A DNA stretch of 64,000 nt from Pelotomaculum isophthalicicum JI (GTDB lineage Bacteria; Bacillota; Desulfotomaculia; Desulfotomaculales; Pelotomaculaceae): assembly GCF_029478095.1 (NCBI RefSeq), contig NZ_JAKOAV010000001.1, forward strand, positions 1-64,000. The letters run 5' to 3'. Position 1 is the first letter of the stretch; each line of letters opens with the position of its first letter. Shown piece by piece: positions 10,810 through 54,237 of this stretch. The translations under genes and the position numbers were made by a program. The notes below the pieces were generated by a model. That model was not told the origin of the DNA and did no database searches. It was given only the letters and a program-made list of their open reading frames with translations.

Positions 10810-11231
10810 ATGTGTTGTATTGCAAAAAAATCTTTCGTTCAGCAGGAATTGTAGAGAAATTATAGAAGGCTTTTATGGAGGTGTTTTCCTATACGCGCCA
10901 ATTATTTCTTAAGGGAAGTGTAATTTACTTTTTTTATTTATCCTTGTTCTGTTTTAGCTTACCTGGATCAGGGAAACGTCAAAGTCGTTTCTTAAACACA
11001 ATATATAGTAATTAATTATATATGAAAATTATCTATATATTGTTATAAAAATTGGACTTTGGAGTTTCCCTTTTGTATGGATTGAAGATATTTTCCCCTG
11101 GAGGTGATTGTTTGGCAGTTATTTAAAGAGGTCCGTTAAGAAAATGTAGTAACGGGAGGGGATAGTGAAATCCCCTTGGTTGGCGGGGAAACAATTTAAC
11201 TATTTATGCAAGTGAGGTGAAGAAAAAATCA
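10810..11231. other. Gene-free leader region with two hairpins
   Basis: AT-rich spacer of about 420 bp with no convincing ORF. Before the next gene it has two stem-loops: 11133-11155 (CCGTTA/TAACGG) and 11158-11175 (GGGGAT/ATCCCC). The CCCC of the second could alternatively pair with GGGG at 11184-11187, allowing a switch. I could not match it to a known riboswitch. Confidence 0.4.
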
Positions 11232-13451: not shown

Positions 13452-13483
13452 GAACTTAGTTTAACTGTAAGCAGGTGTATGTA

Positions 13484-14794: not shown

Positions 14795-14872
14795 ATCATT
14801 GTAAGTTGACTCTGTTTATTCAAATTTAGATCTTTGAGTGCGGTTATCTAATAGTTTTAGGAGGTGTATAGC

Positions 14873-16903: not shown

Positions 16904-19900
16904 ATGAGAATTAATCAAGCAGTCCGCCGAAAGGCAATGACTGTAATTGCTATGGTTATATGTCTGTCAATGTTGATGCCCGGGCCGTTTGGCATTGTAA
17001 CGGCAGCTACCGGTGGAGGCGGCGGCAGCATTGGTTTTCCTGTTATTGCAACTGTTGGTGACACAGCTATAACCGTAAATGGTAATGTTGGTTCTGAGTT
17101 TAATGGTTTCGTGGCAACCGTGGTATTGAAAAAGATAATTGGCAACGATGAAAGTCTCATTACATCTGAGGAAGTTCGGGTTCAAAACGGCAGCTTCACC
17201 TGGGTTATTCCGGCGGATACCTTGCAGGGAGCGGGAAGTTACAAGGTTGACGCCTCGATAAATGGGAATGCCTTACAGGGACAGGGTTCTTTTTCAGTAG
17301 CACAACCTGCAGCGCCCACAGCGGACCCGCCGGAGGGGACTTACCAGGGTGCCCGCCAGGTAACGCTTTCAGCTGAGGCAGGGGCGAAGATTTACTATAC
17401 TACTGACGGAAGCCAGCCAAGTACAAAGAGCACACTATTTACAGCTCCTTTCAGTATTACCCAGACCACCACGGTTAAGGCCATCGCCGTCAAGTACGGC
17501 GCAGTGAGCAATACTGCCATATTTACCTATACAATTACCGGCGGTGGCGTCGTAGTTCACGTCACTGGCGTAACTGTGGCTCAAACTCTTGATCTGATCA
17601 CCGGCGACAGTAAAACTCTAGTGGCAACGGTCAGTCCGGCCAATGCAACTAATAAGTTAGTAACATGGACGTCTGATAATCCAACTGTGGCTTCGGTGGA
17701 CAGCAGCAGCGGCAAAGTTACTGCCAACAGCGCTGGTACTGCTAATATTACTGTAACAACCGTTGACGGGAATAAAACCGCTACCTGCAAAGTAACCGTT
17801 TACCCGCGCCGTGTGACCGGTGTGGCTCTGGACAAAGATACAATGAATTTGCTGGTAGGTAACAGTGCCAATCTGATCGCCACTGTCGAGCCTTCCAATG
17901 CCACAAATAAAAATGTCGTATGGTCGTCCAGCGATCCCAGCGTGGCCTCTGTAGATAGCACTGGTAGGGTAACAGCTGTCGCGGTTAAGCAGGGCGAACA
18001 ATTCAGTGTGGCTGATATTACAGTGACAACTGCTGATGGCGGCTATACCGCAATTTGCAAAGTGAAGGTGTATCCTGTTGTAACAGTTCAGCAGCAAACG
18101 CAAATCAACCAGAATGCAGCAACTGTTATTTCTTCAACATATAATAGTACGGTTATTACTCAGCAGGTAAGCACTGTTGTGAACAGCCTTACTGCTCTGA
18201 CGGTAAACACCGGTATTTCTGCAAACGAGCAGTTGACAACTGTACAGCAAACCATTTCCACGGTCTTCTCACAAACTGTGACTAGTATGCAACATGGTTA
18301 TGTAAGTCAGGACTTCGTTGCTGAACAGGCCAATACCATACTTAATGATGTAATTGGCAATGTTTTAAATAATGTTGGAGCTGCTGGATTAAATGATCAA
18401 AACATTCAGGCTGCCCAAGGGTCAATAACTACACTAATTGATACAGTTGTAGTAAATCTAAGCAAAACTGTTGTTCAAACGCAACTCGCCGGCACTCTTA
18501 CCACTACAGTGAATACGCTGTTGCAAAGGGTTGACCATGTAAGCGTAGTTGCAACAGGTGGTGCGACTAGTGTAGATGTTGATGCTGCTTCCGTTGCAAA
18601 TGCGGTCTATAATGTAAACAGCATTGCCAACGGCCTGCTGAACAGAAACCTGTCCGATAATACCTCCCTTGCCTCATTAGTTCATGTTCAAAAGCAAGTG
18701 GAACTCTTCGTCCAGTCTACAACTGTGACAAGCGTATCAATCTCAAATAATATCGTTAACACATTGAATAGCAATAACTTCGGTTTGGCATTATTCAACA
18801 GCGATAATGCCGGTATAGCATTGCCACCTCTATCAAGTATAGTTTCCACAATCCAGACGAACGTGCAGGTGACCATTCAGAAAAACACTACACTAGTGAC
18901 GGGTCTTCCAAATGCCAGCGATATTTATGATTATCAATTGATAGTCGACAACACAACCGTTACCAGCTTCACCAGTTCAACATGTACCCTAAACATTCCC
19001 TTTGGCAGTACCCAGTTAGCGGCATCCAGTCTGTTGCCATACTACTTTAATAACCTGAGCGGCTGGTTGCCGGTAATGCTCCCGAGCGGGACATATGCTT
19101 CAGTTATCAGAACTACCTATGGCTATAGCTTCCAAACACCTCACTTGACACCGTTTATGGTAGCAGAGGCTGTTGTACCGCAGGTGATAGCCAACTACCC
19201 AGCCAACGGCGCGACCGATGTAGCGGTAGATGCAACAGTAAAAGCAGTATTTGACAGCGATATAAGTGCCGCAAACCTGAACGGTGTTGTGATCAAGGAC
19301 AGTGCTAACAATATTGTTAGTGGTGTTTCAGCTTCAATTGATGCTAACATGCGCACGTTGCTTATCAATCACCCGAATTTCAGCAACAGCACACAGTACA
19401 CGGTTACCATTCCGGCAAATACCGTTATAAGTGTGGCTAACAGCACCTATAACAGCGCCGTTAACTGGAGCTTTACCACGGTTGCCGCTTCTGGCGGCGG
19501 CGGCGGATCGTCAGCAGCGGCCAGCGTGACCACCCTGTCTGCTGACGACATCGCTAAAGCACAAACCTTTACCTTGAAGAAAGGCACCGACACCGTTGCC
19601 CTGACTGCCGCTGCCTGGGCTAAGCTGGCTGAACTGAAATCAGACTTTACCTTGAAAAATGATGCCGGCACCGTAGTGATAAAAGTATCTCCGGATGCGA
19701 TCGATGTACCCTCCGGATTTACTGTAAGCCTGAAGGCGGCGCAACTCAGTGACGCCAGGGCGGCGGCCCTCCTGGCCGGCGCTGCGGCGGATTTCAAGGC
19801 TGCCAGTGCAATTTATGAAATCACTGCCACTGTTGCGGAAAAAGAAAAGGCAGCGAATCCAGCCACGATTAAGAAGTTCGTTTTCATCACCATGTCTTAT

Positions 19901-20620
19901 GCCGGAGCCGCGGTGGATGAAGACAAACTAGGCGCTTACTGGTACAACGAAAAGGCCGGCCAGTGGGAATATGTCGGCGGCAAGGTCAACAAGGCGGACA
20001 AGACCGTGACCTTTAAGACCGCTCACCTAAGCAAGTACGCCTTGCTGGAAAGCCTGAAGACCTTTAAAGACATAGCGGACCACTGGGCCAAACGGGACAT
20101 TGAGATCATGGCGGCCCGCGGTGTGGCCAAAGGTATGAATGCCAACGAATTTATGCCTGATGCCACTGTTACCAGAGCACAATTTGCCGCTTTACTTGCC
20201 AGGATTACCGGCGCAGCCTATGATCCGGCCAAACAGCCTGCCTTTGCGGATGTGCCTGCCGGCGCCTGGTACGCCAAAGAAGTGGCTGCCGCCTACGCCG
20301 CCGGCCTGATCAAAGGCTATGACGAAAGCTCTTTCGGGCCTGATGATCCCGTTACCAGGGAGCAAATAGCGGTTATGGTGGTGCGGTCGATGAACGCCGC
20401 CGGGGTAATTAAGCCGTTGGACGAAACATCTGTACAAGTCAGGCTGAGAACCTTCAGTGACAGTCAGGGAATCTCCGAATGGGCGCGCCAGTCTGTGGCT
20501 GATGCCGCCGCAGCAGGTATCGTGCGTGGTTATCCCAGTGGCGCATTCCAGCCGTCAAGCGACTCAACCCGTGCTGAAGGAATTGTCATGCTCAAGCGGA
20601 TGATGGATCAACTACCTTAA
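16904..20620 (+). CDS. Large SLH-anchored surface protein
   Basis: 1238 aa. Signal peptide about 1-35; Gly-rich turn; beta domain; CHB_HEX_C-like domain (PPEGTYQGARQVTLSA, KIYYTTDGSQPS); two Big_2 repeats (about 220-395); a long Thr/Val/Gln/Asn-rich helical region (about 400-720) predicted to be elongated; Big_5 domain (about 765-865); Gly linker; a conserved pre-SLH domain ending in a YWYNEKAGQWEYVGGKV-type strand; and three C-terminal SLH repeats (about 1055-1238). The pre-SLH domain is shared with the gene at 20744. ATG at 16904 follows AGAGGTGA. Probably a structural S-layer or anchor protein. Confidence 0.85.
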   Translation: MRINQAVRRKAMTVIAMVICLSMLMPGPFGIVTAATGGGGGSIGFPVIATVGDTAITVNGNVGSEFNGFVATVVLKKIIGNDESLITSEEVRVQNGSFTWVIPADTLQGAGSYKVDASINGNALQGQGSFSVAQPAAPTADPPEGTYQGARQVTLSAEAGAKIYYTTDGSQPSTKSTLFTAPFSITQTTTVKAIAVKYGAVSNTAIFTYTITGGGVVVHVTGVTVAQTLDLITGDSKTLVATVSPANATNKLVTWTSDNPTVASVDSSSGKVTANSAGTANITVTTVDGNKTATCKVTVYPRRVTGVALDKDTMNLLVGNSANLIATVEPSNATNKNVVWSSSDPSVASVDSTGRVTAVAVKQGEQFSVADITVTTADGGYTAICKVKVYPVVTVQQQTQINQNAATVISSTYNSTVITQQVSTVVNSLTALTVNTGISANEQLTTVQQTISTVFSQTVTSMQHGYVSQDFVAEQANTILNDVIGNVLNNVGAAGLNDQNIQAAQGSITTLIDTVVVNLSKTVVQTQLAGTLTTTVNTLLQRVDHVSVVATGGATSVDVDAASVANAVYNVNSIANGLLNRNLSDNTSLASLVHVQKQVELFVQSTTVTSVSISNNIVNTLNSNNFGLALFNSDNAGIALPPLSSIVSTIQTNVQVTIQKNTTLVTGLPNASDIYDYQLIVDNTTVTSFTSSTCTLNIPFGSTQLAASSLLPYYFNNLSGWLPVMLPSGTYASVIRTTYGYSFQTPHLTPFMVAEAVVPQVIANYPANGATDVAVDATVKAVFDSDISAANLNGVVIKDSANNIVSGVSASIDANMRTLLINHPNFSNSTQYTVTIPANTVISVANSTYNSAVNWSFTTVAASGGGGGSSAAASVTTLSADDIAKAQTFTLKKGTDTVALTAAAWAKLAELKSDFTLKNDAGTVVIKVSPDAIDVPSGFTVSLKAAQLSDARAAALLAGAAADFKAASAIYEITATVAEKEKAANPATIKKFVFITMSYAGAAVDEDKLGAYWYNEKAGQWEYVGGKVNKADKTVTFKTAHLSKYALLESLKTFKDIADHWAKRDIEIMAARGVAKGMNANEFMPDATVTRAQFAALLARITGAAYDPAKQPAFADVPAGAWYAKEVAAAYAAGLIKGYDESSFGPDDPVTREQIAVMVVRSMNAAGVIKPLDETSVQVRLRTFSDSQGISEWARQSVADAAAAGIVRGYPSGAFQPSSDSTRAEGIVMLKRMMDQLP

Positions 20621-20743: not shown

Positions 20744-22369
20744 ATGAGAGCTAAAGGTGAACATGAAAAAGTTCAAAAGTATTTCTTATCGGTTCTAATT
20801 GCCGCTTGCTTGACCTTGTTATTTTCTTGCGCTGCAGTTGCAGGGGAGATTGTGTTAAGTGTTAATACTGATAAAGCCGGCTACTTGCCAGGTGAAAATG
20901 TTACCATTACCGGCGCAATGCAATCCGGCGGTAAAGGTTTGCAGGGAGATCTGGCCTTGCAAATAAATGATCCCGGTGGAACTCCTGCGGCGGTGGAAAT
21001 GGTGAGAACGGACGCTCAGGGTAGTTTCTCATTCAAATATCAGCTTGGCACAGATAATGTGAAGTCAGGGAATTACACTGTTTATCTGGCCATCGGAGAT
21101 TACAAGGCCAGTACGTCATTTACTGTTTCATCAACCGGCACAAACTCCGGTAGTAATGATAACGGCGGTGGTGGTAGCAGTAGTGGTAGTAGTACTTCAA
21201 CAGCGACGACATCTTCCGGCAATGTTTTCACTGCCGCTGATTTTCAGAAAGCAATAAGCGCAGCAAATGCCGGCAGCGTCGTTATGCATGACATTGAAAT
21301 GAAGAACGGTGTTGCTTCCCTTTCTATCGAGCCAGGAGTTTTCACCGCATTGAGCCAGCAGCAAAAGAGCCTGGCTTTCCGTGCCGGTGAAGTAACCTTG
21401 CAAATTCCTCCAGGTGCGCTGAACAAAGAGGACCTGGATAAACTGGCCGGTGCTGCCGCCGCTGGAGTGAAGTTGACTATTGCTGAAGAGGAGCGATCCG
21501 GAGCGGGCAGTTTTCTGGTGAGCGGTCTTTCCTGTGCAAAATTGCTGAGTCTGTCTATGGACATGGTAGCAGGTGGCCAAACAACGGGAAATGTGGAACA
21601 ATTCGCAGCGCCTGTGACCGTTCAAATTAAATTGTCTGCCAGTGAACTGGCCGGGCTGGACCCAGACCTGCTTGGCGTTTACTATCTCAATCCGGCGTCC
21701 GGCAAGGCGGAGTACCTGGGCGGAAAAATCGATACAAGTACCGGGATCGTTACTTTCAGCACCAGTCACTTCTCCGGCTTCGCCGTAATGGAATGCAAAA
21801 AATCTTACACCGACGTGCAGTCCACTCACTGGGCATACCGGGATATTTTAATCATGGGCGCTAAACATGTCATGGAAGGAACCTCCTTGAACAGTTTTGC
21901 CCCGGAAGACAGTGTAACCCGGGCGCAATTTGCCGCCATGATAGTCCGTTCAATGGGCCTGAAAACAAGCGGTCCGGAACCTGGCTTCGGGGATGTTACA
22001 CCGGACAAGTGGTACTATAAGGAAGTAACGGCTGCCTATCAAAACGGACTGGTGGGCGGTTATGACGCTGCCACCTTCGGGCCGGATGACCCTGTTACCA
22101 GGGAGCAGATTGCAGCCATGCTTATACGGGCGCTGAATAAGCTGGGCAAAGCACCTGTCCTCGGTCAGGACGAAGCCGGGACAATATTAAATAACTATAA
22201 CGATAAAGAAAGCATTAGCGGCTGGGCTAAGGAAAGTACTGCCGCGGCCGTTAAAATTGGCCTGGTGAAAGGACGCGGCGCAGACAATATTGCGCCCAAG
22301 GCGACGGCCACACGGGCGGAAGGTGCGGCGTTGCTAAAGAGATTCATGCAAAACGCGGGGCTAATCTAA
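20744..22369 (+). CDS. SLH-anchored surface protein
   Basis: 541 aa. Signal peptide about 1-35; a MG2/Big-like domain (VNTDKAGYLPGENVTITG); Gly/Ser linker; a middle domain; the YYLNPASGKAEYLGGKI pre-SLH strand found also in the gene at 16904; and three SLH repeats (about 350-541) with the usual FGPDDPVTREQIAA-type loops. Secreted and likely bound to secondary cell-wall polymer. The N-terminal MG2-like domain may bind a partner; function otherwise unknown. Confidence 0.85.
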   Translation: MRAKGEHEKVQKYFLSVLIAACLTLLFSCAAVAGEIVLSVNTDKAGYLPGENVTITGAMQSGGKGLQGDLALQINDPGGTPAAVEMVRTDAQGSFSFKYQLGTDNVKSGNYTVYLAIGDYKASTSFTVSSTGTNSGSNDNGGGGSSSGSSTSTATTSSGNVFTAADFQKAISAANAGSVVMHDIEMKNGVASLSIEPGVFTALSQQQKSLAFRAGEVTLQIPPGALNKEDLDKLAGAAAAGVKLTIAEEERSGAGSFLVSGLSCAKLLSLSMDMVAGGQTTGNVEQFAAPVTVQIKLSASELAGLDPDLLGVYYLNPASGKAEYLGGKIDTSTGIVTFSTSHFSGFAVMECKKSYTDVQSTHWAYRDILIMGAKHVMEGTSLNSFAPEDSVTRAQFAAMIVRSMGLKTSGPEPGFGDVTPDKWYYKEVTAAYQNGLVGGYDAATFGPDDPVTREQIAAMLIRALNKLGKAPVLGQDEAGTILNNYNDKESISGWAKESTAAAVKIGLVKGRGADNIAPKATATRAEGAALLKRFMQNAGLI

Positions 22370-22602: not shown

Positions 22603-22818
22603 ATCTTAAGGCATAGTAGATTAAGTCACTTGCATGGGGGGTGGTGTAAAGGCACTTGTAACCCAACCACCAGGTTGGCTGTTTACCAGAGAATGATAGC
22701 TGTTTACCAGAGAATGATAACGGAGGTGATTTTTAAGTTTTAGTTTCTTTTTGAGAAGATATTCTCTACGGATTTCGAAAAATTTGTATTGCTTAGTTTT
22801 AAGAGGGGAGGCCCATTC
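22603..22818 (+). other. Long leader of the VWA gene
   Basis: About 210 nt of presumed 5' leader without an ORF. It holds a hairpin CCAACC/GGTTGG with ACCA loop (22663-22678) and then two copies of a 21-bp unit CTGTTTACCAGAGAATGATA(G) at 22679-22699 and 22700-22719. The rest of the spacer holds the terminator and the Crp-like site. Confidence 0.5.
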
Positions 22819-25800
22819 GTGAATTTACAAACTTCTTCTCTGCGAAGCATTTCCTTGGCGCAGAGAATAATGCTCCTTTTTGTATTCGCACTGTTGCTGG
22901 CCATGGTAGTATGCGTACCGGCTTACGCCAGTTTGTCCAATGTGACGGTAAATGCGGATAATCCTACAAATCCTACAGTATATGCGGTTTCTGATTATAC
23001 TTTTAGTTTTAGCGACTCCAGCGGCATGAGTGTAAGCGACGATGTATACATTGCGTTTGCACCGGGTTTTGATGTGAGCAGTATTAATCTTAATGCTGTG
23101 ACAATGACGGTAAGCGGTAATGTATACCAGGCTCCGGCAAGACTTGAAGGTTCTACGTTGATCGTTACAGTGCCGGAAAATGTCGCTGCCGGTCAAGACG
23201 TATCTCTCGTCATTAAAGGAATTAAAAACGCGAGTTATATTGGTAGTAACTATTTCGCTGAAATTTATTTGAGTAGCAATCTTTCGTACGCAAGACCTGC
23301 TTCTGTCAACCTGGTCGCTCCAAAACTCGTCATAAAACCGGATCTCGATACTATAGAGGTATACCTGCGTGACAAGTTGACATTAGAGTTGCAGGACAGC
23401 AAGGGCAATCCATTAAACGCGCCTTATGATGTTTATGTAAATAGTTTCAAAGTCAATGATTCCTTCTACTACAGTGATGAATTCTATCCCGATATTGCCA
23501 ACGTAAGCAAGTGCTCTGGTATTTATATTAAAGCAAACAGCTCCAGTGCCGTTCTCTATTACCGGCCGATGTCCACCGGTACTAAAAAAATAACGGCGTA
23601 CACGTACTCATTTAATGGTGTAAACGCCAACAGCACCAAGGATATCAATGTCACACCGGCAAGTCAGGTGAAAAGCTGGCTGGCTTTAGTGAATGATACA
23701 GGCAGCCTGACGGTAGGGCAACCCGGGAAGTTTGAAGTACAGGTCAATTATACCGACCAGTACGGCAACCCGGTTGACAGGCCCAGCGACCTGACGGTAA
23801 GCCTGGCGGCCACCCAGTTTGGCGGAGGCACTGCCAACGGAAAGCTGTACAAGGCAGATGAAAATGGGTTCATAACAAACTTTGAGATCACAGGCAATGT
23901 GGTGGTTCCGAAAGATCAGTCCAGTATTATCTTCTATTATGTTGACACCAAGTCCACGTCATACAACGGCTACAGGGTTTTTCTGAACGCTGCCGCGGAC
24001 AGTTATACTGGTGCCAATATGGAGATATCCGTTTACCCGGGCAACGCCAGTGTGCTGAAAGCTGTTCCGGCCAACGGTGCGGCCAAGCCGGTCGGCGATA
24101 CTTTTGCCTTGAACATCCAGTTGCTCGACCAGTACGGCAACCCGGCTAATGCCCAGCCGTATACCGGTAACTACCCGACTTCATTGACGGCTGATTTAAA
24201 GAGTTCGTCAGGTACGGGTAGTTTCTACGAGGATTCTTATGCGGAAGAAAAAATTTCCCAAATAACCTTCCCGTATGACTGGTGGACCGGATCAAACGGT
24301 CAGAACAAAACAGTTTATTACAAAGACACTACGGCAGGTGACGTGACAGTATCCGCGGAGGTATACTATCTCCAGTCCGAAACGGCAAGCCTTAAAGTAC
24401 TTCCGCTGCCCGGATCTGTCGACATCTCTTCCGGCATGTCGAACTGGATTCTCAAACAGCGCGGTAAAGTAACTGTCACCCTCAAAGATGCAAATGGCGG
24501 CATTTACACTGTACCAAATGAGTTAACCGGCGGCATCAATGTGATCTTAAATGCCAACCCGGACGGAAATTATTATGACGACCCGGTCGGCGGCAATGAG
24601 CTTTCTTATATCTGGAACTACGGCGGCAGGGTGGTAAATATACCGGCTGGCAAGAGCGGCGCCGATGTTTATTTTGCCCCGGCAAGCGCCGGCAAGAATG
24701 TTCTTTCGGCCATGGTTCAGGGAAATGGTAATACCACGCCCGGCAAGCTGGAAATAGATATCGTCCCGACCGGCGGGGTCAGACTGCAAATGAGCGGTCC
24801 CTTGAGCTTCCTGGCGGGGCAGCCCGGCAAGGTGACGGTATACGTGAAAGACCAGTACGGTAACCCTGTTAACTTAACCAGTGAACTTACCGTCAATCTC
24901 TCTGCGTTCCAGAACAACGGCGATTCAGTCACCGGCCAGGTTTACGGCGCGCAAGTGCTTAACACACCCAACCGCAAGGCGGACATCGTCTGGGTGCTGG
25001 ACAACACCGGGTCTATGTCCGACAAACAAAACGCCGTGGCGAACAATATTTCCGAGTTTTGCAACCAGCTGGCGTCCAGCGGCATGGACTACAACCTGGG
25101 CTACCTGCGCTACAATGACTATACCGGCACGGTGTTGAATACGTTTAGCAATGGAAACCTCTTTACCAGTAATGCCAATGAATTCAGCCAGTCGATCCTG
25201 GCGACGTCCAACAACACTAATGGCAGCACCGAGTATACCATGGGGGCTGTGCAGGCTGCGTTGAACTATCCCTTCCGCAGCGACGCGGAAAAATATATTA
25301 TTGTCGTGACTGATGAACAAGGCGATGACAACGGCCTGGAATCTTCAACGGAAGCTAATGCACGCGCTAATGACGCGCGCGTATATGCCATCTGGAACAC
25401 TTATGATGCCAATTACTCACAAATTGACGAACTGGTTAACAACACCGGCGGCATGCAGGTCGATATCAGCGGGAACTGGAGCACGGCCCTGGCCAGCATC
25501 GGCAGCGACATCGCCGAAAGCACCGCTCCGACTTCCAATGTTATTGACCATGTGGTAATTCCCGCCGGGAAGAGCAGCGCCACCTTTTATTATCAGGACA
25601 CCACCTCTACGATTGGCACCAACTATAGTGTAAATATCGAGGCCGAAGGCGGCAACCTGGAGAGCGCCCAGACCGGCGTCACCATCAACCCCCTTGAAAC
25701 CGGTAAGGTTTCCATCAAGCCGGTTAACGGGACCTATCAAAAGGCCGGCGATGCATTCACTCTGGCCGTTCAACTGGTTGACCAGTACGGTAACCCGGCT

Positions 25801-28284
25801 GCACCGCAGCGCACACCGCTTACCTTGGAACTGGGGACAACTTCGGCAACAGGTAAATTCTATAGCGATTATTGGCTTAGCAACAGGATTACCCAGTTGA
25901 CTATGCAAGATTATTATTACAATTACAGTCAGGGCAGGTATATTTACTATACCGATACCACGCCGGGCGAAGTAACAGTATCAGCTTCAACGTATGAAGT
26001 AAAGAGCGGCTCGGCCACCCTGAAAGTGCTGGCAAACCCTGCCGTCAGCGTTGCAATTGAACTTTCTTCCCCGGAAACAAGCTGGCTGATTAACCAGCGC
26101 GGCAAAGTGACAATTACGCTGAAAGATAAAAGCGGCAATGTTTACACCGTGCCTTCCGAGTACAATTACGGCTTGGAAGTAGGCCTGGATGCCAAATACG
26201 GCAACTTCTACAGTGATCTCGTCGGCGGCTGGGATTTGCCTACCATGTGGTATCCGGATCAGGATTGGAACTGGCACCGCATCACTTACCTTACTATTCC
26301 CGCCGGCAAGAGCAGCGTGGACATTTATTTTGCTCCGCTGAACGCCGGGCAAAACACCCTGACGGGCAGCCTGCTGGGATATAGTGTAACCAGCAATACC
26401 TTTACGGTGAATGCCAATGCCGCCGGTGGGGTCAGAGTAGTCTTCGACCAAAGCTGCCTGTGTTTCACTGCCGGCAAGGCCGAGACGGTCAATGTGCAGG
26501 TTATCGACCAGTATGGCAATCCTGTGCCCCAGGCAAGTGACTTGACCGTAAATCTTTACACGGAGACAGGTGACGGCACGCCTTCAACGACAGGCAAATT
26601 CTACAGCAGCATTAAGGCTGACGGCACACCCGACGGCTCCCCGGTCACATCGATAATTATACCCAAGGGCAGTGACAGCGCTTCTGTCTACTACTACGAT
26701 ACCAAGACAACCGGGCAGAACTACAGCCTGTACCTTGGCTTGAATGCCGCGCCGGTCAACGGCAGCCTGACCCCGGCGGAAGTGTATCCTGCAAACTCAA
26801 GCAGGTTGCAGGTGAAGGTAAAGGATTATAATGTTTACAATGTAAAAGTAGCCGGTGGTGATACCTGGCAAGTAGCAGGACCTGGCGGCGACACGCAAGA
26901 TCTGCAGAGCGGTATGCCTTTCCCAATGACGGTTAGTATTGTCGATGCGCAAGGCAACCCTGTGCCGCAACCTTCCAGGCTGGTGGTAAACCTGTCCACA
27001 GTCTCCGGATCGGTTTACGGGAAATTCTATCTGGACAAAGTAATGACTATGCCCGTTACCCAGATTGCCTTTGATCCCGACTATTATTACTGCTTCCCGG
27101 GTTATGAGCAGGAAGACGGCGGCAGCGGCTATTACGACATTGAGCACGGCGGCGTTGTAAATCTCTACATTAAGGCTGACGGCACCGGCAGCGCGACCGT
27201 GAATGCGAAAGCGAGCGGCCTGGTCGACGGCAACTACGACATCAGTGTATATGCCGCGAATTCAGCAGGTCTTGCCATTCACAATCAATATGGTTATATA
27301 TGGGACGAAAATCAACAGCAATATGTAATGGCTGAAGAAAGCTTCATCGAGCCGGACCAGCGCAAAGCGGTGGGAGTATTCTTGATTGACGAAAAAGGGC
27401 GTCCGGTTATGGCCATAAGCGACACCACAGTCACCCTGGCCGCCGATAAAGGAGCCTTCTATGCCAATAGCTGGAGCGGCACGGAGATTACCACGTGCAC
27501 TATCCCGAAGGGAGTAAGAGGCACCGCGGTATTCTATCAAGCCCCGGATACGGATCAGGGTAAGACGTTTGAAGGTGATGTAAGTCTAACGGCTTCCAAA
27601 AGCGGCCTGACAAGCGCAGCCGCAACCATGAGGGTCGGGCCTTTACCGTATTTCGGCACTTGCCTGCAGCGCGGCTGGAACATCATTTCAACTCCTGTTG
27701 CTCTTGAGCGCAGTTCATTGGATCAATTGATCAGTGACCCGAGTTATATTGAAATAGCTTATCTTTTCGATGACTCGCAGCAAAAGTGGTTCCCGATTTT
27801 CAAGGATCTCGCCAGCGGAAAATGGTATGTCGACAAGGGGCTGGGCACTGCAAATCCAAACTTTTACGTAAAGCCGATGGAAGCGGTATATGTAAAGGTT
27901 AAAGGTTATACTTACACCAAGCATTGCCCGTACCGCAACCCCAGCGGTCCTTATACGCGTGCGATGAACCCCGGGTGGAACCTGATCAGCCCGGCTATCG
28001 ACCTGGCCGAAGGCGGATTCTATAATGACAGTAAAAAGTTGGATCAGGTCCTGGCTAACATCAAAGGTAAATATACCCAGGCAGTCAGCCCCGGTATCGG
28101 CATGCAAGACGCGTGGTCCTATGTGCCTGATTCCGATGCTTCCGGCTATAAGCCCTGGATGAGAGCCGGCTGTGGGTATTGGGTATACATGAAGGAAAGT
28201 GGGACACTGACCGGATTTAGCTATACTCCGGTTAAGAAAATCACATCCTTGTATAGTGGTAGTAGCGCCGCTGCTGATCAATAA
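22819..28284 (+). CDS. Giant secreted protein with Ig-like repeats and an embedded VWA domain
   Basis: About 1821 aa, the largest gene here. Signal peptide about 1-40 ending AYA. At least six invasin/Big-type beta domains with the DQYGNP signature (codons near 23755, 24127, 24850, 25779, 26507 and a DAQGNP at 26944). A von Willebrand factor A domain (about 721-905) interrupts one of them; its metal site reads DNTGS and is followed by VVTDEQGDD. The C-terminus has two GWNIIS/GWNLIS repeats ending in a GYWVYMK motif. No SLH or dockerin, so attachment is unclear. GTG at 22819 is 8 nt after GGGGAGG; a TTG at 22789 is less likely. Likely an adhesin. Confidence 0.82.
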   Translation: MNLQTSSLRSISLAQRIMLLFVFALLLAMVVCVPAYASLSNVTVNADNPTNPTVYAVSDYTFSFSDSSGMSVSDDVYIAFAPGFDVSSINLNAVTMTVSGNVYQAPARLEGSTLIVTVPENVAAGQDVSLVIKGIKNASYIGSNYFAEIYLSSNLSYARPASVNLVAPKLVIKPDLDTIEVYLRDKLTLELQDSKGNPLNAPYDVYVNSFKVNDSFYYSDEFYPDIANVSKCSGIYIKANSSSAVLYYRPMSTGTKKITAYTYSFNGVNANSTKDINVTPASQVKSWLALVNDTGSLTVGQPGKFEVQVNYTDQYGNPVDRPSDLTVSLAATQFGGGTANGKLYKADENGFITNFEITGNVVVPKDQSSIIFYYVDTKSTSYNGYRVFLNAAADSYTGANMEISVYPGNASVLKAVPANGAAKPVGDTFALNIQLLDQYGNPANAQPYTGNYPTSLTADLKSSSGTGSFYEDSYAEEKISQITFPYDWWTGSNGQNKTVYYKDTTAGDVTVSAEVYYLQSETASLKVLPLPGSVDISSGMSNWILKQRGKVTVTLKDANGGIYTVPNELTGGINVILNANPDGNYYDDPVGGNELSYIWNYGGRVVNIPAGKSGADVYFAPASAGKNVLSAMVQGNGNTTPGKLEIDIVPTGGVRLQMSGPLSFLAGQPGKVTVYVKDQYGNPVNLTSELTVNLSAFQNNGDSVTGQVYGAQVLNTPNRKADIVWVLDNTGSMSDKQNAVANNISEFCNQLASSGMDYNLGYLRYNDYTGTVLNTFSNGNLFTSNANEFSQSILATSNNTNGSTEYTMGAVQAALNYPFRSDAEKYIIVVTDEQGDDNGLESSTEANARANDARVYAIWNTYDANYSQIDELVNNTGGMQVDISGNWSTALASIGSDIAESTAPTSNVIDHVVIPAGKSSATFYYQDTTSTIGTNYSVNIEAEGGNLESAQTGVTINPLETGKVSIKPVNGTYQKAGDAFTLAVQLVDQYGNPAAPQRTPLTLELGTTSATGKFYSDYWLSNRITQLTMQDYYYNYSQGRYIYYTDTTPGEVTVSASTYEVKSGSATLKVLANPAVSVAIELSSPETSWLINQRGKVTITLKDKSGNVYTVPSEYNYGLEVGLDAKYGNFYSDLVGGWDLPTMWYPDQDWNWHRITYLTIPAGKSSVDIYFAPLNAGQNTLTGSLLGYSVTSNTFTVNANAAGGVRVVFDQSCLCFTAGKAETVNVQVIDQYGNPVPQASDLTVNLYTETGDGTPSTTGKFYSSIKADGTPDGSPVTSIIIPKGSDSASVYYYDTKTTGQNYSLYLGLNAAPVNGSLTPAEVYPANSSRLQVKVKDYNVYNVKVAGGDTWQVAGPGGDTQDLQSGMPFPMTVSIVDAQGNPVPQPSRLVVNLSTVSGSVYGKFYLDKVMTMPVTQIAFDPDYYYCFPGYEQEDGGSGYYDIEHGGVVNLYIKADGTGSATVNAKASGLVDGNYDISVYAANSAGLAIHNQYGYIWDENQQQYVMAEESFIEPDQRKAVGVFLIDEKGRPVMAISDTTVTLAADKGAFYANSWSGTEITTCTIPKGVRGTAVFYQAPDTDQGKTFEGDVSLTASKSGLTSAAATMRVGPLPYFGTCLQRGWNIISTPVALERSSLDQLISDPSYIEIAYLFDDSQQKWFPIFKDLASGKWYVDKGLGTANPNFYVKPMEAVYVKVKGYTYTKHCPYRNPSGPYTRAMNPGWNLISPAIDLAEGGFYNDSKKLDQVLANIKGKYTQAVSPGIGMQDAWSYVPDSDASGYKPWMRAGCGYWVYMKESGTLTGFSYTPVKKITSLYSGSSAAADQ

Positions 28285-28311
28285 AGTATGTTTTGCAAGG
28301 AAGTAGGTGGA

Positions 28312-29391
28312 ATGATGCAGAGGGCCTTACTATTGATTGCGGGGCTCCTGGTCATGCTTCTGGGTGTGTCGCCGCATTTAGCGGCCGGCGACACACCGCC
28401 GCTTCCGGCGGCATATTACGGCAGCGTGACATATGATGATGGTAATCCGGTTCAGACGGGCACCATCGAAGCGGTTATCGACGGGGCCATTTGTGGACAA
28501 ACAAGTATAAGCAACGGCTTTTACGGCTCACCAAATACTGGGGAGCAGAAGCTGGTTGTTCAATACCCGGAAAACATCCCAGGCAAAATTGTCTGTTTTA
28601 TGGTAAACGGTGTTGAAGCAGGACAGTCTGTCGAATGGCAAAGCGGTACTAGTGTCAGGCTTGACCTTGTGGTTAACAAAGCTTCTTTACCCAAGGTGCC
28701 GGCGTTCAGCCCGAACGGCGGGATATTCACCAACAGCGTGACGGTAGGGATCGACAACATAGCGTCAGGCTGCGACGCGTACTACACCCTGGACGGCAGC
28801 GATCCGACATTGAGCGGCACAGTATACAAAACGCCGTTCACGCTGACAGCGTCCGGGACAGTAAAAGCAGCCGTGTACGACAGCAGTACGGGACTGTGGA
28901 GCAGTATAACAAGCGCGGCATTCACCATCAACAAGGCCGTCGGCGGTACCGTAAGAGGTTCGGTAGTCCCACAAGGCCTCAGTGCCGGCAAGTTTGCTGG
29001 AATAAATGTCATTCTGCTTAGCGGTAGTCAACAAATAAGCAGTACGTCAACATTAAACGATGGTTCTTACCAGATGGACAATGTGACGGAGGGTATTTAC
29101 ATTGTTATGATCAAAAGCGATAAGTACCTGAGCAGTAAAATTAACGGCGTTTCAGTTTCTGCCGGTTCAACAGTAAACTTAAGTCCGGTCAATTTACTGG
29201 TTGGCGATGCTAACGGTGATGACATGATCGGCGGCCTTGACTTCTCTGCCTTGCTTTCGGCATGGAATAAGAGTGAAGGACAGTCCGGATACAACCCGCT
29301 CAATGATTTCAACGGAGACAAATCAATAGGCGGCCTGGATTTCAGCCTGTTATTGCAGAACTGGAATAAAAAAGGCGCTACCATACCTTAG
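28312..29391 (+). CDS. Secreted dockerin protein
   Basis: 359 aa from ATG 28312 (AAGGAAG upstream; an ATG at 28288 lies before this site). Signal peptide; an AAYYGSVTYDDG-type N-terminal domain shared with the next two genes; a CHB_HEX_C-like domain (DAYYTLDGSDPTLSGT); a carboxypeptidase-regulatory-like domain; and a dockerin (GDANGDDMIGGLDFSALL, DFNGDKSIGGLDFSLLL). A 102-bp stretch (29221-29322) is identical to 13281-13382 in the gene at 11232, which suggests gene conversion. The start lies 27 bp after the VWA gene. Confidence 0.85.
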   Translation: MMQRALLLIAGLLVMLLGVSPHLAAGDTPPLPAAYYGSVTYDDGNPVQTGTIEAVIDGAICGQTSISNGFYGSPNTGEQKLVVQYPENIPGKIVCFMVNGVEAGQSVEWQSGTSVRLDLVVNKASLPKVPAFSPNGGIFTNSVTVGIDNIASGCDAYYTLDGSDPTLSGTVYKTPFTLTASGTVKAAVYDSSTGLWSSITSAAFTINKAVGGTVRGSVVPQGLSAGKFAGINVILLSGSQQISSTSTLNDGSYQMDNVTEGIYIVMIKSDKYLSSKINGVSVSAGSTVNLSPVNLLVGDANGDDMIGGLDFSALLSAWNKSEGQSGYNPLNDFNGDKSIGGLDFSLLLQNWNKKGATIP

Positions 29392-29417
29392 ATTAGTTCA
29401 GTGAAACAAACAGGTTA

Positions 29418-29493
29418 TTGTGACGAGGAAGCGCAGGGTAATTATTACAATTTAATCATTTTATTGTATTATTTCCCTGCGTCTTTTTCCTTT
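29418..29493 (+). pseudogene. Decayed 5' end of a cohesin-dockerin gene
   Basis: About 75 bp resemble the start of the gene at 13484 (GAGGAAGCGCA-GGTAA-ATTAC and TTGTATTATTT-CTGCG-CTTTC/TTTTCC). It sits at the same place relative to the upstream dockerin gene as the intact copy does. The start codon is ACG and a stop follows ten codons later. A remnant of a segmental duplication. Confidence 0.7.
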
Positions 29494-29617
29494 GCCATAA
29501 TATTGCATGGACTGCTGATTCCGTTCATATGTTTTAGTTGTTATTTATTACCGCTAGGAAGCCTGTCCAATTCTGTATTAAATTTAAAATAAGTATTAAA
29601 TAATGGAAGTTAATTGT

Positions 29618-30184
29618 TTGGGTAAGTTCAGAAGCACAATTTTTATTTGTATATTGTTGTCATTGTTTTTTTCGGTACCGTCTTTTGCCCCCGGTGAACC
29701 GATGATTCCCGCGGCATACTGGGGTAGTATCAAGTATAACAATGGCGTTCCAGTTTCATCTGGCACCCTTGAGGCGGTGGTAGATGGTGTTGTTTGTGGT
29801 TCGATAGCCGTTAACAACGGGTTTTATGGACAGACAGGGACAGGGCAGAAACTTGTGGTGCAGGGAAATAATCTCGAACCCGGTGATACAGTATATTTCC
29901 GGGTTAACACAGGCGGCAGGGTAATAAATGCGTCAGAAAGCGTAGACTGGCAGTCCGGCGACACCCGTCCAGTCAATCTAACGCTGCAATCTGCCGGCAT
30001 TATTGGAGATGTTAACGGAGACGGTATGGTCGGTGGACTTGATTTTTCTGCCTTGCTGGCTGCCTGGAATAAAAAGGAGGGGGAAAGCGGCTATAACAAC
30101 CTTTGTGATTTCAACGGGGATAAAACAACAGGCGGGCTGGATTTTAGTATAATGCTGCAAAATTGGAATAAATCAGTATATTAA
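29618..30184 (+). CDS. Small secreted dockerin protein
   Basis: 188 aa. Signal peptide, then a single N-terminal beta domain (AAYWGSIKYNNGVPVSSGTLEAV, NGFYGQ, SVDWQSGDTRPVNLTLQSA) and a dockerin (GDVNGDGMVGGLDFSALL, DFNGDKTTGGLDFSIML). I favour TTG 29618 after GGAAG, by analogy with the paralog 30222; ATG 29603 is the alternative. The N-terminal domain is nearly the same as that of the next gene, which ends in SLH repeats instead. Confidence 0.82.
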   Translation: MGKFRSTIFICILLSLFFSVPSFAPGEPMIPAAYWGSIKYNNGVPVSSGTLEAVVDGVVCGSIAVNNGFYGQTGTGQKLVVQGNNLEPGDTVYFRVNTGGRVINASESVDWQSGDTRPVNLTLQSAGIIGDVNGDGMVGGLDFSALLAAWNKKEGESGYNNLCDFNGDKTTGGLDFSIMLQNWNKSVY

Positions 30185-30221
30185 TGGTAATATATTCTAA
30201 ATTAATGGAAGTGATTTTGGC

Positions 30222-31412
30222 ATGTTTAAGAATAGAATTATTCTTCTTATTTATGTTTTATTATCTTTGCTTTTATTATTACCAGCTCTTGCCTCTGCCG
30301 AGCCTATGCTTCCCGCTGCTTACTGGGGAAGCGTCAAATACAACGACGGTGTTTCCGTCCCGTCAGGCACCCTCGAGGCGGTGGTGGACGGTGTTGTTTG
30401 TGGTTCTATAGCCTTTAGCAACGGGTTTTATGGAGAGGCAGGGACGGGGCGGAAACTTGTGGTACAGGGAAATAATCTCGAACCCGGTAAAACAGTATAT
30501 TTTCGGGTTAATACAGGTGGAGTGGTGATCAATGCGGCAGAAAGCGTAGACTGGCAATCCGGCGATACCCGTCCAGTCAATCTAACGCTGCAATCTGCCA
30601 GCCCTGCGGGCGGATCTAACGGCAGCAGCACGAATCAAAACAGCAACACAAATCAGGACAGCAGCACGAATCAGGACAACAGCACCACATCAGGCGGCAC
30701 CACATCAGGCAGCACCACATCAGGCGGCACCACATCAGGCAGCACCACATCAGGCGGCACCACATCAGGCGGCGGTGGCGGTAGTGCGGCGCCGGTTGGA
30801 ACCACGACACCGTCAAACAATCCTGCGCATGAGAACATCAGCAAGACATATTCTGACGTTCCGTCCAGTCACTGGGCATATGCGGATATCCAGTTTATGG
30901 CCGCGAAACACATCATGGTCGGTGTCGGCGACGACAGTTTTGCCCCGGAGGAAAACATGACGCGGGCACAGTTCGCCGCCATGCTGGTGCGGGCAATGGG
31001 CCTTTCCACAGACGGAGCCTCGGTTGCATTTAAAGACGTGACATCTGACAAGTGGTATTACCGTGAGGTGGCCGCCGCCTTCCAGAGCGGCCTGGTGAGC
31101 GGGTACAATCCGGATGAATTCGGCCCGGAAGACACGGTCACCCGGGAGCAGATTGCGGCCATACTGGTGCGGGCTCTGATCAAGGCGGGCAAGCTGCAGC
31201 CTGTGGCGACAGGAGAGATTGATTCAAGCCTGGCGCCGTTCAAAGACCGGGCAAACATCGATGACTGGGCAAGAGAGAGCGCTGCCGCGGCGATTAAAGC
31301 AGGTTTGGTCAAGGGGCGCAGTAACGATACATTTGCCCCGCAGGCCACTGCTACAAGAGCTGAAGGCGCTACCCTGTTAAAGAGGTTTATGCAGGCCGGC
31401 GGGCTGCTATAA
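30222..31412 (+). CDS. SLH-anchored partner of the small dockerin protein
   Basis: 396 aa. Signal peptide; the same AAYWGS beta domain (about 25-125); a Ser/Thr/Gly/Asn linker built from six 15-bp repeats; and three SLH repeats (about 210-396). The gene 38 bp upstream has the same N-terminus joined to a dockerin. This pairing suggests that one domain is displayed in two ways, on the wall and on the cohesin scaffold. The linker is rich in possible O-glycosylation sites. Confidence 0.85.
   Translation: MFKNRIILLIYVLLSLLLLLPALASAEPMLPAAYWGSVKYNDGVSVPSGTLEAVVDGVVCGSIAFSNGFYGEAGTGRKLVVQGNNLEPGKTVYFRVNTGGVVINAAESVDWQSGDTRPVNLTLQSASPAGGSNGSSTNQNSNTNQDSSTNQDNSTTSGGTTSGSTTSGGTTSGSTTSGGTTSGGGGGSAAPVGTTTPSNNPAHENISKTYSDVPSSHWAYADIQFMAAKHIMVGVGDDSFAPEENMTRAQFAAMLVRAMGLSTDGASVAFKDVTSDKWYYREVAAAFQSGLVSGYNPDEFGPEDTVTREQIAAILVRALIKAGKLQPVATGEIDSSLAPFKDRANIDDWARESAAAAIKAGLVKGRSNDTFAPQATATRAEGATLLKRFMQAGGLL
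30681..30770 (+). repeat. Six 15-bp in-frame repeats
   Basis: AGCACCACATCAGGC and GGCACCACATCAGGC alternate three times each, encoding a TTSGG/TTSGS linker. The unit is a multiple of three, so copy-number change would alter linker length without shifting the frame. Confidence 0.9.
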
Positions 31413-31442
31413 GTAATGTAGTCTGGTTTAATTGCACAAAAG

Positions 31443-31481
31443 CTTTCAGGGACAGCCTGAATACCCGGCTGTCCCTGAAAG
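31443..31481. terminator. 15-bp hairpin terminator
   Basis: CTTTCAGGGACAGCC and GGCTGTCCCTGAAAG pair perfectly around a 9-nt loop, 30 bp after the SLH gene's stop. Confidence 0.65.
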
Positions 31482-31542
31482 ATAAATAAATTGGCTGACT
31501 TCTATCCCCGTAGTTAAAATAAAGGAGAAATTTGTACCTGAT

Positions 31543-32709
31543 ATGGCAAAAGCTAAAGGACAAGCTCTTATTATTGATTATTGCGCGGCCGGAAAAGTAA
31601 TGATCCAGTGTTTCATGAAAGCTTCCGTTATCAGCCTGACAGTGCTGTTTTTCTTTTTTCCACCGGTGCAGGCTGCTTCGGCCGGTCCTCTCTATGATCA
31701 CTATCAGGATCTGAAAAATACTTACCCGCAGTTTTTTCAGCGCCTTCTTGACACACAAATGGTCAGTGACAACGAGATCCGGAACTGGCTTTCGGATATA
31801 GACGACTACCTGGCAAACAGGAACGAGGTTGTAACCCAGACAAATTTTAAAGCATATATGACCAACGCTCTGTTGAACACACTTTTTATTGATGAAAACA
31901 AGGCTGTCTACGACGCGGTCATATCTGCCTACAACCAGGAACTAAATGAATATTTTAGCACCGGGAACGTGAGTGGTACTTTGGCTGGTTTTTATGATGC
32001 AGTTAAGACGGTGATCCTGGGCCATGTGGTAATTGCCGATCCCCCATCAAATAATAGCCGGCTGACTAATTATGGAGGACCCTTAAAAGTAAATATAAGC
32101 GGCTTCCTGAAAAGTGTTCAATATTACTATACGCTGGATGGTAGCACACCCACGACATCCGGTACGCTCTATACCGGAATACCAATTGAAATTAGTATGG
32201 CAAACGGGCCGAAAACATTGCGTGCAATTGCCGTAAAAAACAACACAGTCAGTGATACTGCTGTATTTACATACGATACCGCAAGAGGAACTATTCAGGG
32301 GGTGGTCTGCCAGGAAGCGACGGCGCTGAGAAGAGTGAGGGTGTATTTGGAACTGGATGGGCGGGAGTTTGACGCATCAGTGGATGAAAAGGGGAGTTTT
32401 AAACTGGAAAATGTGCCTGCGGGCAGCCGTATTATTAAAATTGTTTCCGATAAATACCTGTCTGAAGGGATACAGGTCCAGTTAATGCCCGGCCAAATCG
32501 CCGTGGTTCCGGAATTGACCATGCGGGCCGGCGATTTGAATGGAGATGGCAAGATTGACACGGCGGACTTGGGGATCTTGAGCAGTGATTACGGGTATAA
32601 AAAAAGCGGTGAAGCGCCTTACAGTGCGGCCGATATCAACGAGGACGCAGTAGTGGATCTGTCCGATCTCGGGTGGATCGCAACGAATTACGGAGCGACG
32701 GCTAATTGA
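31543..32709 (+). CDS. Secreted dockerin protein with helical N-terminal domain
   Basis: 388 aa. After a membrane-export segment (about 25-45) comes a roughly 130-aa helical domain (YDHYQDLKNTYPQFFQRLLDT, GFYDAVKTVIL), a CHB_HEX_C-like domain (YYYTLDGSTPTTSGT), a carboxypeptidase-regulatory-like domain, and a divergent dockerin (GDLNGDGKIDTADLGIL, DINEDAVVDLSDLGWI). The helical domain reappears in the next gene with SLH repeats. The start is uncertain: ATG 31543 has a distant AGGAG, and later ATGs at 31600 and 31615 also precede the signal sequence. Confidence 0.78.
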   Translation: MAKAKGQALIIDYCAAGKVMIQCFMKASVISLTVLFFFFPPVQAASAGPLYDHYQDLKNTYPQFFQRLLDTQMVSDNEIRNWLSDIDDYLANRNEVVTQTNFKAYMTNALLNTLFIDENKAVYDAVISAYNQELNEYFSTGNVSGTLAGFYDAVKTVILGHVVIADPPSNNSRLTNYGGPLKVNISGFLKSVQYYYTLDGSTPTTSGTLYTGIPIEISMANGPKTLRAIAVKNNTVSDTAVFTYDTARGTIQGVVCQEATALRRVRVYLELDGREFDASVDEKGSFKLENVPAGSRIIKIVSDKYLSEGIQVQLMPGQIAVVPELTMRAGDLNGDGKIDTADLGILSSDYGYKKSGEAPYSAADINEDAVVDLSDLGWIATNYGATAN

Positions 32710-32719
32710 TGTAAACCTA

Positions 32720-32775
32720 CAACACAATACGACTACTGGGTCTACATGAACTCCGGTAGTGTAAAAAGCGGAGGG
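32720..32775 (+). pseudogene. Relic of a YWVYM-type C-terminus
   Basis: A short stretch encodes YDYWVYMNSGSVKSGG, matching the GYWVYMKESGTLTG end of the giant VWA protein (near 28175). It lies in a noncoding gap just before the next gene. Probably a fragment of a lost paralog. Confidence 0.5.
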
Positions 32776-32782
32776 AGCAAAT

Positions 32783-34003
32783 TTGTTTAATAATATTAAA
32801 AATAAATATATTTCCAGGGGAAAAATGTTTCTTGCGGTTTTTCTTGTTGCGCTGGCCGTTATCCCCGTGTATGGCGCTGCTGCCGGTACGCTGTCGGACA
32901 ATTATGACCAGCTAAAAAACAGTTACCGGCAGTTTTTTGACCGCCTTACGGGCACCGGCAAAGTGACCGATACGCAATTGCGGAACTGGGTCGGCGATTT
33001 GGACGGCTACCTGAGCGGGGAAACGGTGAGCGACAGCAATTTCGACTCAGTCATGCGGCGCGCTATGGCCGCCACCCTTCTGGCGCCGGAGAACCAGGCC
33101 GTTCTGGATGCGGCCAGAGAAGTTTATAGCCAGGAAATTCAGCAGACGATTGCCGGGAATATTCCGCAGGAGTTCAGGGGTTTTTACGATACGGTCAAGA
33201 GTCTGATTATAAAGCGGGAAAGTAGTGGTTCGGGATCGTCGTCCGGCGGCGGTTCGTCCGGCGCATCGTCAGGCTCGGGATCATCCACGGGCACCAGTTC
33301 GGGCGGAGACTCGGCAAGCTCGTCTACCACCGGCAGTACCAGCAGTACCAGTAGTGCCGGTAGTTCCGGCAACTCCGGCTCATCCGGCGCTACCGGCACG
33401 CCTGGCAGCGCGCCTGATGCCGCTGCTTCAAGCGCTCCCATGTTCAAGGATATTGCCGGCCACTGGGCCGCAGGCGATATAGAGTCAATGGCGTCCCGCC
33501 AGGTGGTCAAAGGTGATCCGGACGGCCGGTTCAGGCCGGACGATACCGTAACCAGGGCCGAGTTTACGGCCATGCTGGTACGCCTGCTGGCGATCAACGG
33601 CGGGGAAGGCGGTAACCGTGTGTTCGACGATGTCGGTGCTGACAAATGGTACTATAGCGCCGTAAACGCGGCTGTCGCGGCCGGCATTGTCCAGGGGTAC
33701 AGTCAGGAAACCTTTGAGCCGGAGTGCCCGGTAACCCGCGAGCAACTTGCCGCCATGGCGGTGCGCGGCTATGTGCGCGGCGGCGGCCGGCTGCTGGATG
33801 GTCCGGCGGCGGAAGCGGTACTGGCGCCGTTCAAAGACCAGGGAGAAACATCCGGGTGGGCGTCAGTTTTCTTGGCTACCGCCGTGGATAAAAAGATTGT
33901 CACGGGTTATCCGGGCGGCCTCCTGAAGCCGGGCGCTCAGGCCACCCGAGCGGAAGCGCTGGTCATACTGAAAAGGCTGGCGGCAGTAGCGGCAGTACAG
34001 TGA
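32783..34003 (+). CDS. SLH-anchored partner with helical N-terminal domain
   Basis: 406 aa; TTG start with GGAGGG upstream. Signal peptide (about 1-33); the helical domain of the preceding dockerin gene (YDQLKNSYRQFFDRLTGTGKV, GFYDTVKSLII); an 80-residue Ser/Gly/Thr linker; and three SLH repeats (about 220-406; DGRFRPDDTVTRAEFT, VTREQLAAMAV, TRAEALVILKRL). The second SLH/dockerin pair in the window. It ends 4 bp from the convergent membrane-protein gene. Confidence 0.85.
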   Translation: MFNNIKNKYISRGKMFLAVFLVALAVIPVYGAAAGTLSDNYDQLKNSYRQFFDRLTGTGKVTDTQLRNWVGDLDGYLSGETVSDSNFDSVMRRAMAATLLAPENQAVLDAAREVYSQEIQQTIAGNIPQEFRGFYDTVKSLIIKRESSGSGSSSGGGSSGASSGSGSSTGTSSGGDSASSSTTGSTSSTSSAGSSGNSGSSGATGTPGSAPDAAASSAPMFKDIAGHWAAGDIESMASRQVVKGDPDGRFRPDDTVTRAEFTAMLVRLLAINGGEGGNRVFDDVGADKWYYSAVNAAVAAGIVQGYSQETFEPECPVTREQLAAMAVRGYVRGGGRLLDGPAAEAVLAPFKDQGETSGWASVFLATAVDKKIVTGYPGGLLKPGAQATRAEALVILKRLAAVAAVQ

Positions 34004-51204: not shown

Positions 51205-51205
51205 A

Positions 51206-52486: not shown

Positions 52487-52512
52487 GTAGTTGGTTAAAA
52501 GAGGTGTATAAA

Positions 52513-53643: not shown

Positions 53644-53670
53644 TTTAGTTTTTTGGGGGGATATGGGTAT

Positions 53671-54237
53671 ATGATTAGTAATAAAATTATAAAAGAACAT
53701 ATTTCAATTATTAATGCTTTAATAGAAGTTACCATGCGCGATATTGAACTATTCGGATCTTATTGCCAAAAAACTATTATGCTAGGCAATACTATCTACC
53801 TTCTCGGCAATGGTGGTAGTGCAGCTGATTGCCAGCACCTTGCGGCAGAACTGGTCGGCCGTTTTAAAAGTCAGCGAGGAGCTTTACCCGCTGTAGCTTT
53901 AACAACGGATACTTCCATACTTACGGCAATAAGTAATGATTACGGCTTTGAGGAAATATTTGCAAGGCAGGTGGATGCCCTTGTAAGGCCTGGCGACCTG
54001 GTGGTGGGCATTTCCACTTCGGGTAACAGTCCAAATGTGGTCAGAGCTATTCAGTTAGCTAAAGAAAAAGGTGCACGGACGGTGGGCTTGACTGGTAGGC
54101 ATGGAGGAAAGCTGGGTAATATCTGCGACCTGTGCGTTAAAGTGCCGTCTGATGTGACAGCCAGAATCCAAGAAGCCCATATCTTGATTGGACATATAGT
54201 ATGTGAAATGGTTGATGAGGTGGCGGACGGTGTTTAA
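53671..54237 (+). CDS. gmhA: Sedoheptulose-7-phosphate isomerase
   Basis: 188 aa SIS-domain protein. Converts sedoheptulose-7-phosphate to D-glycero-D-manno-heptose-7-phosphate, the first step of nucleotide-heptose synthesis. Signature GNGGSAADCQHLAAELVGRF, then LTTDTSILTAISNDYGFE and GISTSGNSPNVVRA. ATG 53671 is preceded by a G-run; an ATG at 53653 is too close to it. It overlaps hldE by 8 bp. Confidence 0.9.
   Translation: MISNKIIKEHISIINALIEVTMRDIELFGSYCQKTIMLGNTIYLLGNGGSAADCQHLAAELVGRFKSQRGALPAVALTTDTSILTAISNDYGFEEIFARQVDALVRPGDLVVGISTSGNSPNVVRAIQLAKEKGARTVGLTGRHGGKLGNICDLCVKVPSDVTARIQEAHILIGHIVCEMVDEVADGV

Follow-up and report, generated by a model that had tools for sequence, protein, structure and literature searches.

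Within the window, by which we mean the whole stretch of 64,000 nucleotides analysed here, five co-directional plus-strand genes (28288-34003) follow a giant gene and are followed by a gene on the opposite strand. The giant (22789-28284, plus strand) encodes an Ig-like/VWA surface protein with a signal peptide and a C-terminal domain, here called gC (27670-28218); Pfam places its von Willebrand A domain at aa 732-882, amid Ig-like repeats. Three bases beyond its stop codon starts gene 28288-29391, whose product joins head A (28396-28674) to a CHB_HEX/Fn3-like stalk, a carboxypeptidase-regulatory-like (CpD) stalk and a dockerin (29203-29355), as assigned by Pfam and by head and dockerin profile searches. 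The next gene, 29603-30184, is a minimal form consisting of head A (29696-29995) and a dockerin (30005-30154); a TTG start at 29618 sits inside this ORF, which has an ATG at 29603. Head A (30300-30599) recurs in gene 30222-31412, where it is followed by a Ser/Thr/Gly/Asn linker and three SLH repeats (30846-31364). The last two genes carry head B, which is helical: 31543-32709 combines it (31681-32019) with CHB_HEX, a CpD stalk and a dockerin of a different class (32527-32676), and 32783-34003 combines it (32882-33214) with a Ser/Gly linker and three SLH repeats (33443-33958). Pfam reports Dockerin_1 in the products of 28288, 29618 and 31543, and SLH in those of 30222 and 32783 as three stretches each (E 5e-39 and 3e-40), with repeats that carry TRAE/TRAQ/TREQ-type motifs. 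Signal peptides were assessed by eye. A terminator scan gave no plus-strand terminator-like site between the five genes, its two plus-strand hits (28580 and 29808) both being intragenic, so that a single transcript for 28288-34003 is plausible.

The wider locus (7373-34003) adds an SLH-cohesin protein, an adaptor, a cohesin-like protein, two more dockerin proteins and two more SLH proteins, all encoded on the plus strand. The wall-anchored cohesin (7373-9940) has three SLH repeats at its N-end and a cohesin at its C-end (Pfam, 9566-9772). It is followed by a protein with an MG2-like head, a regulatory-like stalk and a dockerin of a third class (9955-10809), and by one in which the helical head C (11604-12218) precedes stalks and a dockerin (11217-13451). 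Two Big_2 repeats of this latter gene (12468-12999) are 96% identical in DNA, marking a recent tandem duplication. The adaptor (13475-14794) joins a cohesin (13643-13930), Big_5 and a regulatory-like stalk to a dockerin (14603-14752). The product of 14864-16765, a cohesin-like N-domain with three Big_2 repeats and no detected anchor, resembles the adaptor (E 4e-11) and has no match to Pfam Cohesin. By Pfam, 16904-20620 encodes CHB, two Big_2, Big_5 and three SLH repeats, and 20744-22369 an MG2 head with three SLH repeats, to which the head of the 9955 product is weakly similar. The locus is flanked upstream by CpsB/CapC, and downstream by Wzz and sugar-transferase genes. Beyond these polysaccharide genes, G+C falls to 0.29 in window 50001-54000 (surroundings about 0.5), a stretch that is possibly foreign DNA.

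Shared heads and their anchors

The observation with which this study began, that the 29618 and 30222 products have a nearly identical AAYWGS head on a dockerin and on an SLH tail, respectively, holds: 90 of 108 residues are identical (E 2e-62; 87% over the 100-aa head), and both tails are recognised by Pfam. What had been taken for a pair is, however, a set of three, the dockerin copy 28288-29391, at 50% to the SLH copy, having been overlooked, as had the wall-anchored cohesin (7373-9940). Similarity between the near-identical genes ends abruptly at DNA level where the tails start. Within the heads, dN is 0.07 and dS 0.52 (dN/dS 0.135), which argues that their likeness is maintained by selection, beyond mere recent copying. 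The second pair, described as sharing a helical YDQLKN domain, is indeed homologous with dockerin versus SLH tails, but well diverged (40-45%): 59 of 147 residues are identical between 31543 and 32783 including the signal peptide (E 2e-31), and 45% over the roughly 110-aa head B alone. All three head A and both head B copies of the genome lie in this locus.

Neither head A nor head B scored above cut-off against Pfam and NCBIfam, and head A as a member of a known family in these collections was thus rejected. Against PDB sequences, the best head A matches were the S-layer proteins 7acx and 7acv at E 0.05, which were set aside; those of head B, led by a protein titled THR6 (E 4e-6) and followed by interferon and coiled coils, were put down to chance among helical or designed proteins. 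A relationship between heads B and C was likewise rejected (hhalign probability 3%). The AlphaFold2 model of head A (pLDDT 91) predicts a transthyretin-like beta sandwich, with a best Foldseek E of 2e-3 and VIA Z of 6.5-8.3 against many such folds, and that of head B (pLDDT 90) a seven-helix domain for which the solved-fold search gave no clear match (Foldseek E 1.9 or worse, VIA Z <= 3.6). Neither predicted fold fixes a function. No head A was found in viral contigs, and plasmids gave no DNA match.

The genome encodes eight dockerin proteins and five Pfam cohesins, of which three belong to SLH proteins; each cohesin is on a separate protein, unlike a scaffoldin with several cohesins. To judge cohesin-dockerin matching, we compared the dockerins by class and by calcium-loop motif. 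Those of 11217, 13475, 28288 and 29603 form one class (66-92% identical), and those of 31543 and 9955 fall outside it; acidic residues stand where expected in both calcium loops of this class and of 31543. Going by these classes, it is probable that heads A and C share one cohesin and that head B uses a different one.

When the eight dockerin proteins were compared with 30 SLH ORFs of the same genome after masking of anchors and common stalks, five shared a region beyond Big_5 with an SLH protein: those of 29603, 28288 and 31543, that of 9955 (an MG2-like region, with 20744) and one on contig C22 (185 aa, 47%). A sixth match, between 13475 and 16904, is the common Big_5 domain. Every sharing partner is a neighbour. 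Contig C22 (L078:3049-4293, L078:7232-16813) holds a second cohesin/dockerin locus of this genome, in which the 185-aa domain occurs in the dockerin protein, and three times in a 3194-aa cohesin-SLH protein.

Recurrence in relatives and the history of the tails

Among 113 genomes of the order, head A was found in 26, head B in 20, head C in 13, dockerins in 34 and cohesins in 29, these being counts of genomes without correction for relatedness. Domains were called with HMMs built from window sequences and then iterated, SLH by strong E-values, and the key dockerins exceed the Pfam cut-off. Eight relatives from three families, four from the same family (G004, G015, G016, G019) and four from two others (G047, G056, G109 and G058), have SLH-tailed and dockerin-tailed head A genes together in a single co-directional cluster. 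The genes run in the order gC giant, head A-SLH, head A-CHB-SLH, head A-CpD-dockerin, and then cohesin and dockerin genes; at the 3' end, most have a large SLH protein, which in several bears head C. One such cluster is on record as UBA5766 (DIEU01000058.1). Counting our own, nine genomes have head A on both tails, or ten with one cohesin-dockerin fusion. G107 has head A-CHB-SLH plus a head A-cohesin-dockerin protein. G067 and G100 combine the latter type of protein with head A on another tail. Beside these genes, both genomes have head A fused to Cu_amine_oxidN1 (L065:8557-9435, L118:10781-11644).

Head B is on both tails in three genomes (our own, G109 and G110), and SLH-tailed only in most. 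Head C is on both in G047, G056 and G109 (n=3), and the head C gene of the window, 11217, has a dockerin. Contig C23 of G109 bears heads A, B and C, each in both modes. A same-species genome (G112, 64% complete) has homologues of 7373-11217 on contig C62, which then ends. In a same-genus genome (G001), head A, head B, dockerin, cohesin and gC are all absent; a distant head C-like SLH protein is present there (L141:3902-6772).

A maximum likelihood tree of 54 head A domains groups the cluster genes by tail, with one group of eight SLH rows (100/99), another of nine CHB-SLH rows (98/90), and a third in which four same-family dockerin rows are joined by one CWB2-tailed row (99/94), while the window dockerin and SLH heads pair with each other (100/99). 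A single clade of all dockerin-tailed rows was rejected (AU p about 1e-102), and tails have thus been exchanged more than once. As such, the SLH/dockerin arrangement is old in the cluster and was remade in the window lineage, where the near-identical pair is, on this tree, a later tail exchange separate from the cluster's old paralogues. For head B, a single origin of the dockerin-tailed form was not rejected (p 0.107), and independent origins are therefore claimed for head A only. Positions 13002-13594, which run from the 3' end of gene 11217 into the beginning of the cohesin gene that follows it (13475), match 28942-29533 at 82%, and the match extends beyond the stop codons. Between the first two head A genes, DNA self-comparison finds a decayed remnant of cohesin gene 13475, a copy of its 5' end (29393-29540, plus strand). 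This remnant was left when a dockerin 3' end was copied, which makes the reshuffling of anchors visible.

These results bear on the earlier note, which had proposed that the same head is displayed either on the wall or on the cohesin scaffold as an organised two-mode rule, to be checked by searching related genomes for heads with alternative tails. That search did find both tails in relatives; heads unrelated in structure and pairs absent from all relatives, the two outcomes named against the idea, were not what we found, since the heads are homologous and the pairs present. One family on both anchors thus stands, with a wall-anchored cohesin (7373-9940) at hand; identical copies do not, as the cluster heads are paralogues that diverged long ago and sort by tail. 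Nor is a strict rule supported by the near-identical window pair, which goes back to a separate tail exchange. The pattern is a real and recurrent outcome, rather than a strict rule of identical copies.

The gC giant and a proposed surface assembly

Probing with the 180-aa C-terminal domain of the giant (GWNIISTP...), we found a gC gene upstream of, and on the same strand as, the head A gene in 25 of the 26 head-A genomes of the order, with a gap of at most 243 bp in 23 and about 3 kb in G067 and G100. In the exception, G006, the gene is broken and close to a contig end. Presence of the two coincides (gC in 25/26 genomes with head A versus 3/87 others; Fisher p 1e-20, relatedness not controlled). 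In G086, which the first head-A search had overlooked, head A adjoins both gC genes; in G012 and G020, gC lies away from head A. Twelve head-A genomes from other orders were retrieved only once the pattern was known, and gC adjoins or is fused to head A in 11 of the 11 that are testable, the twelfth contig ending there. Moorella, too, has head A with an SLH tail, and in the matching genomes gC adjoins it. None of 41 gC ORFs, including 22789-28284, has an SLH, dockerin or cohesin, and three of the 41 carry head A as a fusion. In some head-A proteins no anchor is recognised, the tail being e.g. Cu_amine_oxidN1 or Big_5. In G105, head A is fused to three CWB2 repeats (L119:5805-7310), a third wall anchor.

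This adjacency and co-occurrence show a functional link between gC and head A, as distinct from contact. Together with the fusions, the lack of an anchor on gC and the CWB2 tail, they suggest that head A meets the giant and that its tail is an exchangeable anchor. Our preferred reading, to which we give a probability of about 0.5 on these comparisons, is that the locus encodes a cell-surface assembly of N-terminal heads on interchangeable wall anchors, in which head A, the strongest case, would be the receptor for the adjacent anchor-less giant. The SLH tail would bind wall polymer directly, and the dockerin tail would be held by the SLH-anchored cohesin (7373-9940) and the cohesin-dockerin adaptor (13475-14794), so that either tail would lead to the same wall, with the scaffold as intermediary for the dockerin. 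On its SLH tail, head A would keep the giant at the wall; on its dockerin tail, it would do so further out, on the scaffold. Genes may have been duplicated locally and then had their 3', anchor-coding part exchanged, which would give rise to the combinations. More tentatively, an anchor-less gC giant and a head-A tether with an SLH, CWB2 or dockerin anchor could form a conserved two-gene surface module across several orders of the phylum, in which case one and the same giant might sit either straight on the wall or further out, on a non-cellulosomal cohesin scaffold. Head B has no conserved neighbour, and the tethering idea therefore does not extend to it.

Alternatively, the locus could show no more than the free duplication and domain shuffling of surface loci, the heads having come by their tails through local recombination without any selected two-mode display. 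Such ordinary paralogy would account for the sharing between neighbours only (SLH proteins outside the two clusters gave no match), for the decayed cohesin-gene copy as a trace of local copying, and for the similarly shuffled CHB, CpD and Big_2 stalks. It sits poorly with head clades that follow the tail and a three-gene order that has stayed the same in three families, with the low dN/dS of the near-identical pair, with the presence of both tails on three unrelated heads, and with the independent recurrence seen for head A, and we consider it unlikely, though not negligible.

It is also conceivable that the heads bind each other, with SLH-borne heads catching dockerin-borne ones and so cross-linking the cohesin scaffold to the wall. 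One cluster does put the same head on both partners, and transthyretin, which head A resembles in predicted fold (a fold similarity only), self-associates. Many head-A genomes have no dockerin version, though, which implies that self-binding across two anchors is not the core role, and leaves this idea improbable. That the heads serve as the tips of adhesins directed at something outside the cell, be it a partner cell or a substrate, held near the wall and further out, would fit their N-terminal, outward-facing position on Ser/Gly/Thr linkers and Ig-like stalks, and PMC9012536 mentions dockerin-cohesin systems as a possible aid to syntrophy in methane-oxidising consortia. This view has a slim chance in our eyes, since it leaves the near-invariant gC neighbour of head A unexplained and no head matches a ligand-binding family.

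With the cellulosome of Clostridium thermocellum and relatives, the locus shares dockerin proteins on cohesins, an SLH-anchored cohesin, and an adaptor with both modules. It differs in that no glycoside hydrolase or carbohydrate-binding module was found by Pfam in 13475, 28288, 29618 and 31543, and no carbohydrate-active enzyme was seen in 9955 (NCBIfam) and 11217 (home-built models); moreover, the window cohesin proteins carry a single cohesin each, and the displayed parts are uncharacterised heads. As secreted non-cellulolytic proteins carry cohesin and dockerin modules here (Pfam and profile searches), the locus is, judged by its domain content, a non-cellulosomal cohesin-dockerin surface system. 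Systems of this kind, reviewed by Peer et al. in 2009 (as cited in PMC9012536), likewise have cohesins and dockerins on non-enzymatic surface proteins; unlike them, the locus makes its heads with SLH tails too, and has an anchor-less giant at its centre. In the Clostridium thermocellum system, a GH16 is carried by an SLH protein, Clo1313_0397, that is not part of the cellulosome. GH16 is also found there with dockerin tails. S-layer and surface proteins anchored through SLH, a group to which 30 ORFs of this genome belong, likewise combine three SLH repeats, a stalk and an outer domain; the locus differs from them in having dockerin-tailed counterparts of that outer domain. Transthyretin/prealbumin-like domains (carboxypeptidase D, CnaB, PapC C-terminal domain) share the predicted fold of head A without a sequence match, and Z of about 8 or less may reflect a common arrangement only. 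A literature search found no paper describing the locus.

Cohesins and dockerins outside cellulosomes have long been known, and their cargo is little understood. The conserved locus links such cohesins and dockerins to named partners (the giant, a three-anchor head and tail-swapped paralogues), which makes their role in these anaerobes testable with a few purified domains. Next to a head B-dockerin gene, G109 has a head B protein that ends in a caspase-like Peptidase_C14 (L115:6276-9014; E 1e-20).
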